Shown: piece by piece, positions 3 through 9,614 of the stretch
Layout: each line of letters opens with the position of its first letter
Position numbering within the stretch: position 1 is the first letter of the stretch
Source: an uncultured Fidelibacterota bacterium
GTDB lineage: Bacteria > Fidelibacterota > Marinisomatia > Marinisomatales > UBA1611
Assembly: GCA_902559415.1 (NCBI GenBank)
Contig: CACEHW010000001.1
Span: 1 to 45,381, forward strand
Direction of reading: 5' to 3'
DNA length: 45,381 nucleotides
Translations under genes and position numbers: made by a program
Notes under the pieces: model-generated
Databases searched by the model: none
Seen by the model: the letters and a program-made list of their open reading frames with translations, nothing else
Told to the model about the DNA's origin: nothing

Positions 3-1085
3 TTCCAAGTTTTTAATAAGACAAAAGGCGAATATGTTTACAACGAGACGCCAACTTACGACTTAACTGGACAACCAAATTTTAGTGGTTCAAATTTAAT
101 ATTTAATGAAGAGAATGATCATTGGGCGATGAACAATGAAGTGCGCTCCGATGTATTTGACGGTATTCAATTAGATATTTCACAAATATTTACAACTCCT
201 TCAATAGATTCAGCAAATTCAGGCTGGGTGGGAGATAGTTATGGTGATGTAAATATTACTATTTCTACTAGAGAATCAAATTTAATTCCATGGGATTGTG
301 AAATTGTTTTTACGGAAGATATAAGCTATAGCTCTAAAGTAGAAAGTCCATTCGGGATTTATGATGAATATGATACTAGACTATGGTTTCCCAATAGGAT
401 TATTTTGGAGCAGTCTTTTGATTTTTATGTTGTAAATAAAACAAAAGTTGATGATAACGGTAATTACACATTAATGGATTTAGTAGTTCAAGACTTTGCC
501 TCATCGTCATGGGGTCTTGATGGTGAATATAATAAGTTTCAAGATAGAATTTTGGTAGGTGAAGTTGATTCATTAAATAACTGGCTGGGTACAGCTTTTG
601 TGATTGACTTTTTTAATATTGACAGTGTTTTCTTACCAAAAGCAGGCTCTAGGTATTCTATTAGTTGGAATAGAAATTTTTGGGCTTCAGATACATTTAA
701 ATTTAAAGTTGATAGCGTTAGAAAAATTGTTGAAAATAATCTAGAAGAGGATATGAAAGATATAAGAGTTGTTCCTAATCCTTATGTCGGTACTAATGCA
801 ATGGAAGAAGCTGTTATAAACTCGTTTCTAAATCAGCCTAGAAAGATTATGTTCACTAATCTCCCGTCCAACTGCGTTGTGACCATTTTTACTCCGAGCG
901 GGGTAAAAGTGAAAACAATTTATAAAAATGACGGAATAGATAATGGCATAATATATTGGGACTTGTTAAATCAAGAAGGGTTAGAAATTGCAGCTGGGAT
1001 GTATTTATACCATGTAAGACCAAATTTTACTGATAAATCGCTAAATGGATTAGAACAAACAGGGAAGTTTGCTGTTATAAAATGA
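3..1085 (+). CDS. Secreted protein with T9SS-like C-terminal sorting domain, 5'-truncated by window edge
   Basis: The frame is open upstream of the listed ATG to position 3 (FQVFNKTKGEYVYNETPTYDLTG...). The C-terminus IRVVPNPYVG...VTIFTPSGVKVKTI...GMYLYHV...GKFAVIK resembles a Por-secretion/FlgD-like tail. Confidence 0.75.
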   Translation, partial: FQVFNKTKGEYVYNETPTYDLTGQPNFSGSNLIFNEENDHWAMNNEVRSDVFDGIQLDISQIFTTPSIDSANSGWVGDSYGDVNITISTRESNLIPWDCEIVFTEDISYSSKVESPFGIYDEYDTRLWFPNRIILEQSFDFYVVNKTKVDDNGNYTLMDLVVQDFASSSWGLDGEYNKFQDRILVGEVDSLNNWLGTAFVIDFFNIDSVFLPKAGSRYSISWNRNFWASDTFKFKVDSVRKIVENNLEEDMKDIRVVPNPYVGTNAMEEAVINSFLNQPRKIMFTNLPSNCVVTIFTPSGVKVKTIYKNDGIDNGIIYWDLLNQEGLEIAAGMYLYHVRPNFTDKSLNGLEQTGKFAVIK

Positions 1086-2161
1086 AGAAAATTACTTTAT
1101 TTATTTTTATGCTATTTGTATCACTTTCTTATGGGCAATATAGGTTTGGGACAACGGCAGCAAATTTTTTAGAAATTGGTACAAGCAGCCGTGCTGTTTC
1201 AATGGGTGAAGCGTTTGTAGCTTTAGCTGATGATGTTAACTCAGCATATTGGAATCCAGCTGGGTTAGCTTTCGTGAATGGATTAGAATTTGGAGTTTCT
1301 TCACAGGATTGGGTAGTGGGGATTACCCATTCTACTTTTGCCACTGCGATTGATATGGGGAGCTATGGTACACTGAGTACGTGGTTTACTGATTTTGACT
1401 ATGGCTCTACTGAAGTAACAAATGTATTAAATCAGAATGGGACTGGAGAATATTTTAATGCAAACGAATTAGCGGCATCTATATCCTATGGTAGAAATAT
1501 TGTAGACTGGTTTGCTTTTGGTGCATCAATTAAAATGATTAGTTCCAATATTTGGCACTCAACTGCAAGCGCGATTGCGCTTGATTTAGGCGTAATAGTA
1601 AAAACAAATTTTTTCTCTAAGGCAAATGATAGAGAAAATGGTATGGCGATAGGAATGAGTATATCAAATTACGGTTCTAAAATGAGATATGATGGAATTG
1701 ACTTGATCAACCCAATCGATATTTTAGAAAATGAAAATGGTAATTATGAAAATGTAATCGGTCAGTACAGAACAGAATCATGGGAGTTGCCCTTAATTTT
1801 TAGATTAGGGTCTTCAATTAAGCCAATAAAAAACGAAGTTCAACAGCTTATAGTGTCTTTTGATGTTCTTCATCCTAATAATAATAGTGAATCTTTAAAT
1901 ATAGGTTCAGAATACTCTCATAAAATTATAGGCGGGCATATTTTCTCCTTAAGATCAGGAATAAAAGGCATTGGAATTGAACAGCCAAATGAATCAGAGC
2001 TTTTTAGTGGTTTTGACTTACCCTTCTCTACTTTAACTTTTGGTTTAGGTTATGAGAAAGCACTTCCCGGCAATAAAAGTGTTTCAATTGATTATTCTTA
2101 TCAATCAATTGGCGTACTTGGAGATGTTTCTCTTCTTACAATGCGTTTCAAATTATTTTAA
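1082..2161 (+). CDS. PorV/PorQ family outer-membrane protein
   Basis: Signal peptide, then FLEIGTSSRAVSMGEAFVALADDVNSAYWNPAGLA, the hallmark N-terminus of PorV/PorQ-family barrels. 4-bp overlap with the upstream gene. Confidence 0.85.
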   Translation: MKKITLFIFMLFVSLSYGQYRFGTTAANFLEIGTSSRAVSMGEAFVALADDVNSAYWNPAGLAFVNGLEFGVSSQDWVVGITHSTFATAIDMGSYGTLSTWFTDFDYGSTEVTNVLNQNGTGEYFNANELAASISYGRNIVDWFAFGASIKMISSNIWHSTASAIALDLGVIVKTNFFSKANDRENGMAIGMSISNYGSKMRYDGIDLINPIDILENENGNYENVIGQYRTESWELPLIFRLGSSIKPIKNEVQQLIVSFDVLHPNNNSESLNIGSEYSHKIIGGHIFSLRSGIKGIGIEQPNESELFSGFDLPFSTLTFGLGYEKALPGNKSVSIDYSYQSIGVLGDVSLLTMRFKLF

Positions 2162-2171
2162 TTTTTAAAAA

Positions 2172-3647
2172 ATGAAGCGGGTCTTCTCCTTAGCTCTTCT
2201 TTTTTTTATTTTTTATTTTTGTTCTTGCGAAAATTCTAAAAATAAAAGTACTGTAATTAATAATGTTAATAACAATTTATTAACTACTATCGGTGATAGA
2301 GAAATCACTGTAAATGATTTTATCAAACGCTGCGAATATGTCCCAAGACCAAACTATTGTAAAAACAACAATTATATTCACAAAAAAATTGCTCTTAATT
2401 CATTGATTGCAGAAAAATTATTGGCGATTGAATATGAAAAAAAGAATTTCAGCTTTACTAGCGCACAGATTAATCTCATTACTGGAAGAAAAGAGCAGTC
2501 TTTAAGACAAATGATGCTAAAAAAAAATGGTTTTGATAAAGTTGAGCCAAATCCTGCATTAGTAAGGTTGGTTGCTAAGCAAATAAAAAAAACTTACGAA
2601 ATATCTTTTCTAATCCTGACTGAAGAACAAAAGCAAAAGGTTTTATCTAAAAATTTAGAATCATTATCTACCATCCCAAGCAGTATAGGTGATTCACCAT
2701 CAATTAATTTTAGAAAGATCACTTTTAATGAAGAAATGCCACTTAAAGTTAAAGAAATATTGTATTTTTCTGAGCCTCAGGATAATGTTCTTTACGGACC
2801 TGTCTCTATAAATAAAAAGAGTTCTATGTTTTTTGAAATTGAAGGATGGAACACTGCAGTTTCTGTAACTGATGAGCAGAAGAAGCAATCGATTATTGAT
2901 GCGCAAAAATCATATAATGAATTAAATGCGCTGAAAATTTATGAACAGTATGTATCTAGTTTGATGAGGGGGAAGAAATTAGATTTTGACCCAAAGACAT
3001 TCCAATTATTTTCAGATAGGGTATCTGAAATATATTTAATTGAGAAGGACAAAAAAGAATCAGCTATGCAAAATAGTATATGGGATCAAGAAATAAAAAA
3101 AATAAAAGAAATTTCTTCATTTAATGATCTAAAGGATATAAAAAATCAAAATTTATTGTTTTTCGATAACAAAAACTATAGTGTGAAAGAGGTCTTAAAT
3201 TTAATTAAAACGCATCCCTTAGTTTTTAGGAATCGTAAAATTTCTAAAAATACTTTTGATAACGAATTAAAATATGCTTTAGCTGATCTTTTTAGAGATC
3301 AGGAGATAACAAAAAAAGCTTACAAATTAAATTATGATAAAGATAAAGCTATTATTAACATAGAAAGAAAATGGAAAGACTTTATTAGTTCTGAGGTAAT
3401 GAAGAAGAAATTAACAAAGGGGACTGATAGTGGACTAAAAATAATTTCTTCTAAGGTTGACTCTCTGCAAAAGATTTATTCAAATATTATAAGAATCGAT
3501 ACTGATAAATTTGAAAAAATCAAATTAACAAATATCGATTTAAATGTCATTTATACTAACCAAGCATATCCATTATTTGAGCCTTCTTTTCCAATTTTAA
3601 CAGATGATCATTTACTAGACTATGGTAAAAAATATAATTTTAATTAG
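2172..3647 (+). CDS. Lipoprotein, possibly SurA/PpiC-like peptidyl-prolyl isomerase-related chaperone
   Basis: Lipobox FYFCSC; IGDREITVNDFIKRCEY...LNSLIAEKLLAIEYEKK resembles the SurA N-terminal chaperone region; lysine-rich. Confidence 0.5.
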   Translation: MKRVFSLALLFFIFYFCSCENSKNKSTVINNVNNNLLTTIGDREITVNDFIKRCEYVPRPNYCKNNNYIHKKIALNSLIAEKLLAIEYEKKNFSFTSAQINLITGRKEQSLRQMMLKKNGFDKVEPNPALVRLVAKQIKKTYEISFLILTEEQKQKVLSKNLESLSTIPSSIGDSPSINFRKITFNEEMPLKVKEILYFSEPQDNVLYGPVSINKKSSMFFEIEGWNTAVSVTDEQKKQSIIDAQKSYNELNALKIYEQYVSSLMRGKKLDFDPKTFQLFSDRVSEIYLIEKDKKESAMQNSIWDQEIKKIKEISSFNDLKDIKNQNLLFFDNKNYSVKEVLNLIKTHPLVFRNRKISKNTFDNELKYALADLFRDQEITKKAYKLNYDKDKAIINIERKWKDFISSEVMKKKLTKGTDSGLKIISSKVDSLQKIYSNIIRIDTDKFEKIKLTNIDLNVIYTNQAYPLFEPSFPILTDDHLLDYGKKYNFN

Positions 3648-4596
3648 TATAGTTTTTTATACTACTTCTTGTAAAAAAAATGAAGAAGAAGAACAATTTG
3701 AAATACCTGGTTGCATGGATTCTTCTGCTTGGAACTACAACTCATCCGCAACAATTGATGACGGAGGTTGTTTTTATTTTGGTTGTACGGATATATCAGC
3801 GATTAATTATGATTCAGTTGCTACAGTTGATGATGGTAATTGTTTATATCAAGAAAGTATTGTAGATGGGTATCAATTATTCTGGAATGATGAATTTAAC
3901 CAAGACAGTCTTAACCTAAATTTTTGGAATATTGAAGAATGGTGGGAAGGAGCTTTTAATGAAGAAAGTCAAAGGTATGTTGACAGTAGAGAAAATATTA
4001 CCATTATTGATGGGAAATTATATATCAGAGCGAAAAAAGATTTACCATTTGATCCAAATAACCCATCCTATTCATCAGGGAGGATCAATACTAAGGGTAA
4101 AGTAGAATTACAGTACGGGTATTGGGAAATTAGAGCAAAACTACCACAAGGGGTTGGGACATGGCCTGCTATTTGGATGCTAAATTCTAAAATTGATTCA
4201 ATTGGTTGGCCTTATTGTGGAGAAATTGATATTATGGAGCATGTGGGATTTGACCCAAACAAAGTTTTTTTTAGTATTCATAATGCTAATTTATATGGTG
4301 GTGTTCACGGCACAAGTCAGCAAGGGGTATACGAATTAAATACTCTTGAGACATCCTTTCATAATTATGCAATTGAATGGGGAGATAATTTTATTAAAGG
4401 CTATATAGATGGTATTCTTTATTTTGATTACAGCAAAAATTCAACATCCTTTAATGATTGGCCGTATGATAATAAATTTTTTCTTATTTTAAATCTCGCG
4501 ATTGGAGGGGCATGGGGAGGTATTCAAGGAATTGACAATTCTATCTTTCCAGCATCTTTTATAATCGAATATGTTAGGTTATATACAAAACAATGA
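3622..4596 (+). CDS. GH16 family endo-beta-glucanase (laminarinase-like) lipoprotein with tandem GCxDxxAxNYxxxAxxDDGxC modules
   Basis: Catalytic motif GEIDIMEHVG; YGYWEIRAKLPQGVGTWPAIWML; lipobox YTTSC; two N-terminal Cys-rich repeats. Start overlaps the upstream stop by 26 bp. Confidence 0.92.
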   Translation: MVKNIILISIVFYTTSCKKNEEEEQFEIPGCMDSSAWNYNSSATIDDGGCFYFGCTDISAINYDSVATVDDGNCLYQESIVDGYQLFWNDEFNQDSLNLNFWNIEEWWEGAFNEESQRYVDSRENITIIDGKLYIRAKKDLPFDPNNPSYSSGRINTKGKVELQYGYWEIRAKLPQGVGTWPAIWMLNSKIDSIGWPYCGEIDIMEHVGFDPNKVFFSIHNANLYGGVHGTSQQGVYELNTLETSFHNYAIEWGDNFIKGYIDGILYFDYSKNSTSFNDWPYDNKFFLILNLAIGGAWGGIQGIDNSIFPASFIIEYVRLYTKQ

Positions 4597-5657
4597 GAAA
4601 TTATAAGTCACTTATAATTTTCATTTTTTTATTCAATAGTTATTTGCTTTCTCAAAAGCCATATCGGGGAGCAGAGTATCGTACAATTAACGAATTTTTA
4701 TATGGTCGTTTTGAAGTAAAAATGAAAACAGCAATAGGCTCTGGAGTTGTCTCTTCATTTTTTACTATTGATGATTATTGGGCAGAAGGCCAAAGCAGTA
4801 CTGAAAATTGGAGAGAAATCGATTTTGAGGCACTCGGGAATATTAGTAACGCAATCCAAACAAATATTATAACTGCTTATGAAACACACCATGAAGAAAT
4901 AATCTATACTCCATTTTATCCTTATAGTGACTTTCACGTTTACGCGTTTGAATGGACACCGCAGAGTATAAAATTTTTTGTTGATGGTCAGCTAGTTCGA
5001 GAAAACTATGATGACTATGTTTCTACTCTTAACACCGGTCAAAAAATTATGATGAACATTTGGCAACCAGTTTGGGAAAGTTGGGTAGGCGAGTTTGATG
5101 ATTCAATCTTACCTGTATATGCATATTATGATTGGGTAAAATATTATTCTTATACCCCGGGCGAAGGTGCTTATGGTAGTTTTAATAATTTCTCTTATGA
5201 GTGGGAAGATAATTTTGATACTTTTAATGATCAAATTTGGCAAAAAGCTACTCATACTTGGTCAGCTAATAATGCTCAATTTGTGCAACAAAATTCCGTA
5301 TTGCAAAATGGCTATCTAATACTTTGTTTAACAGATAATATGACCTATGGATATTCAGGTGAAGAATTATCTATAACTAAAAATGATAATCGCAATGAAC
5401 AATGCAGGTTTACTATTGCTCCGAATCCATTTAATTCTTCTTTTACATTTGAAATTCCTGAAAATTTCAGAGATAAACCGGCTGAAATAATTTTTTACAA
5501 TATAAAAGGGGTAGAAGTTTTACGTAAGAAATTTTTTTTAATAAGTGATAAAATAAAGGTTGATTTTACCAGAGCTAACTTATCAAGTGGACTATATTTA
5601 CTGCATGCAAAGACAGGGAAAGAAAATTTTTATTTTAAAGTAACTTATTTAAGGTAA
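4593..5657 (+). CDS. Circularly permuted GH16 1,3-1,4-beta-glucanase (Fibrobacter-type lichenase) with T9SS C-terminal domain
   Basis: RGAEYRTINEFLYGRFEVKMKTAIGSGVVSSFF..WREIDFEALGN..QTNIIT precedes, rather than follows, YEWEDNFDTFNDQIWQKATHTWSANNAQF..QNGYLILCLT. Tail APNPFNSSFTFEIP...GLYLLHAKTGKENFYFKVTYLR. Confidence 0.88.
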   Translation: MRNYKSLIIFIFLFNSYLLSQKPYRGAEYRTINEFLYGRFEVKMKTAIGSGVVSSFFTIDDYWAEGQSSTENWREIDFEALGNISNAIQTNIITAYETHHEEIIYTPFYPYSDFHVYAFEWTPQSIKFFVDGQLVRENYDDYVSTLNTGQKIMMNIWQPVWESWVGEFDDSILPVYAYYDWVKYYSYTPGEGAYGSFNNFSYEWEDNFDTFNDQIWQKATHTWSANNAQFVQQNSVLQNGYLILCLTDNMTYGYSGEELSITKNDNRNEQCRFTIAPNPFNSSFTFEIPENFRDKPAEIIFYNIKGVEVLRKKFFLISDKIKVDFTRANLSSGLYLLHAKTGKENFYFKVTYLR

Positions 5658-7636
5658 GTAATTTTTTTTATTAATTCTGAATTAGTATTTTTTATTTTTA
5701 ATAAAAATATTCCTGATGGTATATTTTTATAATCTTGTGAAGATTTCAAACCCCAGTTTAGTTTATTTAATCCTTTAGTGGCTGTTAAGTTTTTTTCAAA
5801 AACTTTATTCCCAATTAAATTAAATATTGTTATTTGTGTTTCACTCGCAAAAGAACTTTCCCATTGGATATTGAGATCTGCATTTAAAGGGTTTGGATAA
5901 CATATTAGATTGAAGTTGGTTGGGAATGATGAAATATCCATTTTATTAAATATAATATTTTTAAAATCAAATCCACCACTTATTGCCTTAATTTTAAGAG
6001 TAGATTTTTCTTGGATTGAAATATTTCCGAGATTTATTATACGCCATCCATCCCCTAAACCAATCGAGTTTGGGATGTTGATTGGTCCCAAAGTATCTCC
6101 AACTTCAGTAGTAGCCAGAATCATTCCATTGTTATCATAGGAAGATATTTCTAAAAATATTTTATAGTTGTCAGGTTTTTCAGATCGGATGGAGTATTTT
6201 ATCCATTCTCCATCTTCTATCCAACCGATGTGATAATCACCTGTTCCACCGCTACTAAACCCTATATCAACTCCATCGTTTCGATAAGACCACCCGTTGT
6301 TCCATGATTTTGTGTCTGGTGAAAATTTATTAGGATCTTCAGATTGGTTATCAAAATAAGCTACATAATTATTACCTGTATCATAATTAACCGCTGGTAG
6401 AAGCCCTGGCGCAATAAAGTTTGAAAATGATTCACTTTTTGAACTAAAGCTCGTATCAGACAGTGCTCTAGTTAATCCAATATTTACTTTACAAGAATCA
6501 AAATGGAGGCTTCTGGCCATTGAAATTAATCCTGCAAAGGCTTCAGCAGTGTCAGGCTTTATTCCATTCCCTCCCCAATAGTTAATTAGATTTTGGTATT
6601 CATCTGTTATTTTATAACTAAATAAGCTTGAAATTCTTTCTACACTTTTAAAATTCCACCAGCTCCATCCTATATTATTTCTATTAAAGAATTCTTTAAT
6701 CCCATTTGCCCAGACATTAGAATTCTCACCAAATTCCCCAACCCATAGGGGGACATTGTATTGTAATGCTATATCGTTTCTATATTGATTATACATTGTC
6801 ATGGTATCATTAATACCTCCTACATAATGATGAAAGCTGTATACAATATTTGGATCAAATGGTGGGAAAAGACCAGTGTGATCATTCCCATACCAATTAC
6901 CTTCAATTATTACCATATGATTCTGGTCTACAGCCCTGATAGAATCAATGCACTGCTCATATATATTTCTAAGGGTTGTTGCAACTCCAGGTCTTGCAGG
7001 CTCATTCAAAAGATCATAACCAGCAATTACAGGTTCACTTTTATAATAATTCGCAATATGTTTCCAAGTAGACGCTAGCCAGCGTTGATTTGTATAACTG
7101 GTAAAAAGTTCAGAATCTCCATTTAACTCAGAATCTGAAAAATCGCTAGTATTTTGCGCACCAGGAGCTGCGTGCATATCAAGAATTAAATAAACATTGT
7201 ACCTATTACCCCAAGCAACTAAAGAATCTAAAAGTTCAAAGCCCTCTGTGCTAAACTCCATAAAATTAGGCGAAAAATCTCTGTAATGGAGTGGAACTCT
7301 TAAAGCATTAAAATTATTATCAGATATGTATTTTACATCTTTTTCTGTGATGTAATTTTTTCTATATAAATCAAAAAACTCTCTTTTTTTATCTTCTCCA
7401 ACTAAATATTCAATAGCAGCCTCCATTCTCGATGTAGATGCATGCTCAATATAGCAATTCCACATATACCCTTCTAAAACCAACCAGCCACCAAGACCAA
7501 ATCCTTGGAGCATTATTTTTTCATTATTTTCATTAACAATTGTATCGCCACTTGTTTTTAAAAAATCTATTGCCAATATGTAATTAGTAAGCAAAAGAAA
7601 TAATATAATTTTTTTTATGACAGTATTAAAAACCAT
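5645..7636 (-). CDS. GH5 family glycoside hydrolase with CBM6/35-like domain and T9SS C-terminal domain
   Basis: LQGFGLGGWLVLEGYMW, DLLNEPARPG (acid/base), PLWVGEFGEN (nucleophile); CBM-like YRNDGVDIGFSSGGTGDYHIGWIEDGEWIKYSI; tail CYPNPLNADLNIQW...SGIFLLKIKNTNSELIKKITYLK. Confidence 0.88.
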   Translation of the reverse strand: MVFNTVIKKIILFLLLTNYILAIDFLKTSGDTIVNENNEKIMLQGFGLGGWLVLEGYMWNCYIEHASTSRMEAAIEYLVGEDKKREFFDLYRKNYITEKDVKYISDNNFNALRVPLHYRDFSPNFMEFSTEGFELLDSLVAWGNRYNVYLILDMHAAPGAQNTSDFSDSELNGDSELFTSYTNQRWLASTWKHIANYYKSEPVIAGYDLLNEPARPGVATTLRNIYEQCIDSIRAVDQNHMVIIEGNWYGNDHTGLFPPFDPNIVYSFHHYVGGINDTMTMYNQYRNDIALQYNVPLWVGEFGENSNVWANGIKEFFNRNNIGWSWWNFKSVERISSLFSYKITDEYQNLINYWGGNGIKPDTAEAFAGLISMARSLHFDSCKVNIGLTRALSDTSFSSKSESFSNFIAPGLLPAVNYDTGNNYVAYFDNQSEDPNKFSPDTKSWNNGWSYRNDGVDIGFSSGGTGDYHIGWIEDGEWIKYSIRSEKPDNYKIFLEISSYDNNGMILATTEVGDTLGPINIPNSIGLGDGWRIINLGNISIQEKSTLKIKAISGGFDFKNIIFNKMDISSFPTNFNLICYPNPLNADLNIQWESSFASETQITIFNLIGNKVFEKNLTATKGLNKLNWGLKSSQDYKNIPSGIFLLKIKNTNSELIKKITYLK

Positions 7637-7793: not shown

Positions 7794-9614
7794 ATGAATT
7801 TAATTTATAAGAATCTATTAACTATTGTTGCATTATTATTTATATCATTAATTAGTTGCTCAAGTAATAATGATAAATTCATATCAGAGTTGATAAAAAA
7901 GATGACATTAGAAGAAAAAATAGGACAGATGACACAAGTTGATTATCGTTACTTAAAAGATAAATCTGATATAGAAAAATATTTTTTAGGATCTATTCTT
8001 AGTGGTGGTGGATCAACCCCTCCGACAAATCAACCATCTTCTTGGGTTGATCTTTACAATGGGTTTCAAAAAGAAGCACTTAAAACGAGGCTTAAAATTC
8101 CATTGATATATGGAATTGATGCTGTTCATGGTCATAATAATGTTCTAGGAGCTACTATGTTTCCCCACAATATTGGTTTAGGCTGTGCCAATGATAAATT
8201 ACTTACGCAAAAAATTGCAGCTGCAACTGCAACAGAAGTAAAGGCTACAGGATTAGACTGGACGTTTGCCCCTTGCGTGGCTGTTGCGCAAGATGAAAGA
8301 TGGGGGAGAACATATGAAAGTTTTTCAGAAGATCCTAAAATAGTGACTGAACTTGGAGTTGCTTCAACCTTAGGGTATCAGGGCAGGACCTTAAATAAAA
8401 ATTCTGTGCTTGCTTGCGCAAAACATTTTGTAGGTGATGGTAACACGGTATTTGGTACGGGTACGAATTGGTATAAAATTGATAGAGGAGATGTTATATT
8501 AGAAGAGAAAGAACTTAGAGCTAAATATATAAAACCATTTAAGGAATCTATTAAAGCAGGAGTTGGAAGCATTATGATTTCTTACAATAGCTGGAAGGGC
8601 CAAAAGCTTCACGGTCATAAATATTTAATTGATGATATTCTTAGGAAAGAGCTCCAGTTTGATGGTATTGTAATCTCGGATTGGGCTGGCATAAATGAAA
8701 TTGACCAAGACTATAAAACTTGTGTTATTCAGTCAATTAATGCAGGAATTGATATGAATATGGTTCCAGGTAGTCTTAACCCTGATGATAACTCGTATGA
8801 TGATTTTATAAGATTAGCAATAGAATCAGTGAGAGAAGGTTCTATTCCAATGGAAAGAATTGATGATGCCGTATCAAGAATATTAAGAATAAAAAAGAAA
8901 ATAGGACTTTTTGATAATCCTATAAAGTCACCTCCTATTAAGAATATAGTAGGGTCTAAGAAACATAGAAATTTAGCTAGAGAAAGCGTTCGAAAATCCT
9001 TGGTTTTATTAAAAAATAATAATAAAACATTACCTTTAAAAAAGTCTGGGAAAAAAATTACATTAGTTGGCACTCATGCGGATAATATTGGATATCAATG
9101 TGGTGGGTGGACGATTCATTGGCAAGGAGGTTCTGGTGATATAACACCTGGTACTACTATTTTAGATGCCTTTAAGTCTGCTGTCAATGATTCAAATGAC
9201 ATTCATTACTCACCAAATGGAGATAATTTATTAGACCCCGATATAATTGTATTAGCCATAGGTGAAAAACCTTACACTGAGGGGGTAGGTGATAGAGATT
9301 CTCTTACGCTATCATCTGATGATAAAAGGATTTTAGAAAAAGTTAAAAAATCAAATAAACCATTTATTGTCATTCTAATATCTGGGCGTCCAATGATTGT
9401 AAATGATGCTTTAAATAATAGTAATGCCTTTATTGCTGCCTGGTTACCTGGTACAGAGGGAGAAGGTATTGCAGACGTAGTATTTGGAGATTTCGATTTT
9501 ACTGGTAAATTATCTATGACCTGGCCTAAGTCAATGGATCAAATACCAATCAATTATGGTGATAGTGATTATGATCCGTTATTTAAATTTGGTTTTGGCT
9601 TGTCTTACGAATAA
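7794..9614 (+). CDS. GH3 family beta-glucosidase, lipoprotein
   Basis: KKMTLEEKIGQMTQVD, GIDAVHGHNNVLGATMFPHNIGLG, nucleophile motif VISDWAGINEID; lipobox SLISCSS. Confidence 0.93.
   Translation: MNLIYKNLLTIVALLFISLISCSSNNDKFISELIKKMTLEEKIGQMTQVDYRYLKDKSDIEKYFLGSILSGGGSTPPTNQPSSWVDLYNGFQKEALKTRLKIPLIYGIDAVHGHNNVLGATMFPHNIGLGCANDKLLTQKIAAATATEVKATGLDWTFAPCVAVAQDERWGRTYESFSEDPKIVTELGVASTLGYQGRTLNKNSVLACAKHFVGDGNTVFGTGTNWYKIDRGDVILEEKELRAKYIKPFKESIKAGVGSIMISYNSWKGQKLHGHKYLIDDILRKELQFDGIVISDWAGINEIDQDYKTCVIQSINAGIDMNMVPGSLNPDDNSYDDFIRLAIESVREGSIPMERIDDAVSRILRIKKKIGLFDNPIKSPPIKNIVGSKKHRNLARESVRKSLVLLKNNNKTLPLKKSGKKITLVGTHADNIGYQCGGWTIHWQGGSGDITPGTTILDAFKSAVNDSNDIHYSPNGDNLLDPDIIVLAIGEKPYTEGVGDRDSLTLSSDDKRILEKVKKSNKPFIVILISGRPMIVNDALNNSNAFIAAWLPGTEGEGIADVVFGDFDFTGKLSMTWPKSMDQIPINYGDSDYDPLFKFGFGLSYE

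Follow-up and report, generated by a model that had tools for sequence, protein, structure and literature searches.

A Fibrobacter-type circularly permuted GH16 glucanase with a T9SS tail in an uncultured Fidelibacterota bacterium, and the wider family around it

Main finding

A 161-kb contig of a genome assembly that is 65% complete begins with the 45,381-nucleotide stretch analysed here (the window). This stretch encodes a naturally circularly permuted GH16 glucanase in which a signal peptide is followed by the GH16 core, then by the strands with which a GH16 lichenase usually starts and finally by a T9SS domain (Table 1). The 1,3-1,4-beta-glucanase of Fibrobacter succinogenes is a known natural circular permutant that has been regarded as a curiosity of one rumen bacterium. 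The permuted form is, however, far wider than this single described enzyme, and neither the secretion tail nor the adjoining GH16 gene is what is new in the window. Core-first order, junction, E-x-D-x-E motif, jelly-roll model and T9SS C-terminal domain are direct observations, and the protein most likely cuts beta-glucans internally, at the cell surface or outside the cell, probably in the manner of a lichenase; its substrate and secretion route are predictions. We hold with high confidence to the explanation as a whole, namely a Fibrobacter-type permuted GH16 that would be exported by the T9SS and act as a beta-glucan endo-hydrolase feeding the neighbouring enzymes, and that most likely descends from a single permutation.

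Table 1. Features of the permuted glucanase gene and its neighbours (positions in the window unless a relative is named).
Feature	Position	Strand	Details and evidence
C-terminal part of ~1160-aa protein	3..1085	+	cut by contig start; conserved neighbour
PorV/PorQ-family outer-membrane barrel	1082..2161	+	NF033709, 192 bits (cut-off 90); synteny; co-occurrence
SurA-like N-terminal domain (weak); putative periplasmic chaperone	2172..3647	+	PF13623, 28.3 bits, just under cut-off 28.5
Non-permuted laminarinase-type GH16	3622..4596	+	lipobox TTSC; best match 5wut, 2e-55
Complete gene of the circularly permuted GH16 glucanase, T9SS domain included	4593..5657	+	354 aa, ATG start
Signal peptide-like N-terminus	4593..4652	+	aa 1-20; hydrophobic by sequence; model helix aa 4-19
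GH16 catalytic core	4656..5153	+	aa 22-187; alignments with Fibrobacter glucanase and 3i4i 75-231; PF00722
Catalytic motif E75-I-D77-F-E79	4815..4829	+	E-x-D-x-E without beta-bulge; invariant, n=81
Permutation junction Y-T-P-G-x-G-x-x-G	5151..5186	+	old C-terminus to old N-terminus; alignment columns
Lichenase N-terminal strands moved to C-terminal side	5190..5366	+	aa 200-258; segment searches, block swap, profiles
T9SS C-terminal sorting domain	5415..5642	+	aa 275-350; PF18962 and TIGR04183 over cut-off; separate beta domain
GH5 glycosidase with T9SS tail	5645..7636	-	profile matches
GH3 beta-glucosidase-like protein	7794..9614	+	lipobox LISC; profile matches
~1160-aa protein without Pfam match in relatives	L145:2511-5993; L141:10919-14425

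Evidence for the circular permutation

The block that forms the core here is usually the second part of a lichenase. Pfam placed the GH16 family PF00722 at aa 19–158 of the window protein (1.2e-28), and in a phmmer search of the PDB the Fibrobacter glucanase 3axd aligned without a break over aa 19–257 (2.2e-49), while native lichenases matched over the core only (3i4i, for example, over its residues 75–231). The C-terminal segment searched on its own found the C-terminus of the Fibrobacter enzyme (5e-7 as a single sequence) and, as a profile of 16 relatives, reached the Fibrobacter glucanase at 1e-16. Its next GH16 matches were the N-termini of native lichenases (3i4i 19–72, E 0.003; 3wvj 12–53; 1gbg 8–55), and all 15 PDB chains found by the profile at E <10 were GH16 proteins, those from sources other than Fibrobacter all being matched near their N-termini. 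Taken as a single sequence, this short segment matches native lichenases weakly (E 0.4); the case for permutation, as we read it, rests on profiles, block order and structure.

After the two blocks were swapped in silico, Fibrobacter matched in two fragments standing in the wrong order (125.7 + 30.6 bits). The 3i4i match, which had reached 111.5 bits over the core alone, rose to 123.9 bits and now covered residues 23–231, and 3o5s, 1gbg, 3wvj, 1byh, 1mac and 1u0a likewise became end-to-end matches. In hhalign, the segment profile matched the N-termini of six non-permuted GH16 proteins with P 2.6e-6. An hmmsearch shuffle test of the same profile on seven non-permuted homologues was clear in three (0/300 shuffles) and not significant in four, the best match lying directly upstream of the core in all seven. 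Moreover, the P, G and G columns of the junction are invariant in the alignment of permuted members, Fibrobacter included, no stretch resembling the junction motif was present at the end of the non-permuted homologues examined, and the W, D, F, W, N, G and L positions of the segment are common to the Fibrobacter enzyme.

AlphaFold (pLDDT 89) yielded a confident jelly-roll for the GH16 part (about 95 over this domain), followed by a disordered linker (aa 262–275) and the tail as a separate beta domain. When this model was compared with the PDB by Foldseek, the first nine places all went to the Fibrobacter glucanase (1zm1_B, TM 0.93 by target, rmsd 1.7), after which came the engineered permutants 1cpm and 1cpn and then native lichenases, over ~160 columns only. 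The preliminary description had read the gene as a core followed by the usual lichenase start, in the layout of the Fibrobacter permutant, and both points are borne out by the searches, the block swap and the fold. That the C-terminal stretch is an unrelated module behind a truncated GH16, as might be supposed from the Pfam GH16 model ending at aa 158 with the segment uncalled, is hardly credible, being contradicted by the block swap, hhalign, the Foldseek match, the residues common to Fibrobacter and the segment and profile matches to both the Fibrobacter C-terminus and native lichenase N-termini.

The layout was compared across 81 full members, comprising the window protein and the best 80 of 435 relatives. 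Their GH16 cores begin within about 50 aa of the N-terminus, and in this limited sample no member had the segment on either flank of its core at once, as an intermediate would. An assembly artefact is ruled out, because the same layout recurs in hundreds of contigs (435 confirmed relatives) and in L028, a 79%-identical sibling with the gene order of the window.

Among known systems, the closest is the Fibrobacter glucanase (1mve, 1zm1, 3axd), which shares the permutation, break point, junction motif and E-x-D-x-E and is collinear with the window enzyme over 238 residues at about 38% identity; the window enzyme differs in its TIGR04183-type tail, as far as the Fibrobacter sequence available for comparison, short of the full-length C-terminus, goes. 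Bacillus-type GH16 lichenases (1gbg, 3o5s, 3i4i; NCBIfam NF047856) share the fold and the catalytic motif, and both blocks align, but their block order is opposite, they have no T9SS tail and the loop DGWSNG of non-permuted homologues is lacking in the window enzyme. The engineered Bacillus glucanases 1cpm and 1cpn have a similar block order, with aa 27–234 aligned in one piece, but are laboratory constructs, unlike the natural permutant of the window.

Catalytic residues and substrate

The catalytic triplet aligns with E56, D58 and E60 of the Fibrobacter enzyme, residues whose roles are well established, and the Fibrobacter substrate-binding residues N72, N139, W141, W148 and W165 are kept as N91, N155, W157, W164 and W181. 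Two others differ: Trp203 of Fibrobacter corresponds to His221, invariant in all 81 members, and Arg137 to Met153 in the window enzyme, and substrate preference may therefore differ from that of the Fibrobacter enzyme. With the catalytic motif lacking the beta-bulge and these two replacements considered together, we call the enzyme only probably lichenase-like.

It is possible, though we favour it less, that this same permuted family acts mainly on laminarin or another beta-1,3-glucan and not on mixed-linkage glucan. The marine-type lineage, the laminarinase-type GH16, GH5 and GH3 neighbours and the presence of His221 and Met153 in place of the Fibrobacter Trp203 and Arg137 are consistent with such a substrate, but the E-x-D-x-E motif is of the lichenase kind in having no beta-bulge, in contrast to the bulged EIDIME (E-x-D-x-x-E) of the adjacent GH16, and the best NCBIfam match of the permuted protein is the beta-glucanase BglS model, albeit under its cut-off. 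On the preferred reading of a lichenase-like enzyme, the protein would be exported by Sec, pass the outer membrane through the T9SS and then be attached to the surface or released. There it would hydrolyse a beta-glucan internally by a retaining mechanism, the likeliest target being mixed-linkage beta-1,3-1,4-glucan, and would supply its products to the GH16 of laminarinase type, the GH5 and the GH3 that are encoded next to it.

The T9SS tail

Por_Secre_tail (PF18962) matched aa 277–347 with 29.9 bits (cut-off 27) and TIGR04183 matched with 26.2 bits (cut-off 23). Signal peptide and TIGR04183/PF18962 domain together resemble those of T9SS type A cargo glycosidases in Bacteroidota and relatives, from which the window protein differs in having a permuted GH16 as its catalytic domain. 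Each of the two models found the tail in 79/81 members. The two members without it, L042:3911-6490 and L052:3881-6493, are single chains of 860–871 aa that combine the permuted GH16 with GH5 and CBM6 modules and end in a stretch matching dockerin weakly. By eye, C-terminal dockerin-like repeats and an extra N-terminal domain also occur in a divergent Neomarinimicrobiota subgroup (L136–L139), although in L136 Pfam called GH16 only and no dockerin. A T9SS tail is present too on L135, the Bacteroidota-phylum sister of the Fibrobacter enzyme in our tree, and the basic terminal domain of several other Fibrobacter glycosidases has been proposed as a T9SS signal (PMC6851124). The combination of permuted GH16 and T9SS tail is therefore the rule, so that the preliminary description was right about the presence of the tail and mistaken in presenting it as new.

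The genome of the window contains 34 T9SS tails above cut-off. Its own 65%-complete assembly gave no match to the SprA translocon domain, which was found in 12/12 relatives and in 17/18 carriers from other groups. The tail could in principle be vestigial, or a cell-wall-type Ig domain, with export taking another route, and its scores little above cut-off and the dockerin-like repeats that replace it in a few relatives are compatible with this. We consider it unlikely, however, given the retention of the tail in nearly all members across several phyla, the number of such tails in the genome and the T9SS translocon of the relatives.

In addition, 57/81 members are of a long form in which a Malectin domain separates the permuted GH16 from the tail, and some genomes carry short and long copies side by side.

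Distribution and origin of the permuted family

The permuted domain was found in 70/245 genomes of the window's own phylum and in 36/396 of a second phylum, that of an Ignavibacteria MAG; named records with the permuted form include MAGs of Neomarinimicrobiota, Ignavibacteria, Calditrichota, KSB1 and Bacteroidota. The rotated form is common in related marine and subsurface bacteria, and the window copy is thus ordinary for its lineage. Plasmid records gave 153 GH16 matches, none of which covered 80% of the query, so that these are core matches only and no permutant was seen among them. We found no description in the open-access literature of permuted GH16 enzymes beyond Fibrobacter, and the breadth of the family seems undescribed so far. 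These data suggest a large permuted family in which the Fibrobacter enzyme forms a single branch. Across the many orthologues of this family, the effects of a natural permutation on stability, substrate and tail attachment become testable, with non-permuted relatives at hand for comparison.

In a tree of GH16 cores, the permutants, Fibrobacter included, split from their non-permuted relatives at 99/97, and a wider core tree with more divergent members placed all permutants on one side of a branch at 99/99, with Fibrobacter nested inside them and paired with L135 at 100/99. The phylogeny thus groups the permuted GH16 proteins with the Fibrobacter enzyme, in line with the kinship put forward at the outset. 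Since the P-G-x-G-x-x-G junction is common to Fibrobacter and the others, a single event is favoured, and the permutation most likely happened a single time, before the lineages leading to the FCB phyla and to Fibrobacter diverged or passed the gene between them. When L135 was omitted, placing Fibrobacter outside a clade of all other permutants remained compatible with the data (p-AU 0.387), and the proposal of a single event therefore depends on the junction and on the broader sampling. Independent permutations in Fibrobacter and Neomarinimicrobiota could be argued from that result and from the long branch of the Fibrobacter enzyme. Such a double origin is nevertheless improbable in view of the identical break point, the common junction and the nesting of Fibrobacter among the permutants, on the permuted side of the 99/99 branch, once L135 is added.

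One genome of the same phylum holds a non-permuted relative (L133), which is preceded, as judged by eye, by PKD-like repeats.

Gene neighbourhood and the PorV-family protein

The permuted gene begins within the last bases of the non-permuted GH16 gene, its start and that gene's stop sharing 4 bases (ATGA); at its other end it shares 13 bases with the convergent GH5 gene. The adjoining non-permuted GH16, of laminarinase type, is indeed there, as described earlier, but its placement is no novelty either: a similar GH16 is found no more than about 4 kb away in up to 28/80 loci (L028–L107). In the same loci and within the same distance, a PorV-family gene was found in 62/80, from several phyla, the large upstream protein in 48, GH3 in 41, GH5 in 37 and the SurA-like protein in 32, with three control genes scoring 0; CotH matches were left out of this count because many reflect shared tails only.

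Of 61 genomes, with PorV orthologues defined by at least 315 bits (the next best scoring 217), 22 had both PorV and the permuted GH16 and 35 had neither; 3 had PorV alone and 1 the GH16 alone. Both are therefore found in 22/26 genomes with either (Fisher p 2e-12, kinship ignored). Two of the three PorV-only genomes are short contigs and the third is G003.

The PorV-family protein may act as a shuttle for the T9SS, or it may be a FadL-like pore belonging to a locus for glucan uptake. More tentatively, the permuted GH16 might belong to a conserved beta-glucan locus of FCB phyla outside the classical Bacteroidota, in which the PorV-family barrel and the ~1160-aa protein, at the surface, would form a co-inherited capture/export module. 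On that same tentative reading the module would be unusual and the barrel dedicated, some relatives having a TonB receptor beside the ~1160-aa protein. A large ORF lies upstream of the set in the distant relative L145 and in the same-genus L142, with a TonB-dependent receptor in L145; the ~1160-aa protein had no Pfam match. The neighbourhood suggests a glucan locus that incorporates a PorV-family protein. The upstream PorV gene is the more interesting lead, and the conserved permuted-GH16 locus merits separate study.

In G003 (L141), which is of the same genus as the window, the block of permuted GH16, GH5, GH3 and CotH is missing and the flanks are intact, with PorV, the SurA-like protein, the non-permuted GH16 and a lytic transglycosylase all kept.
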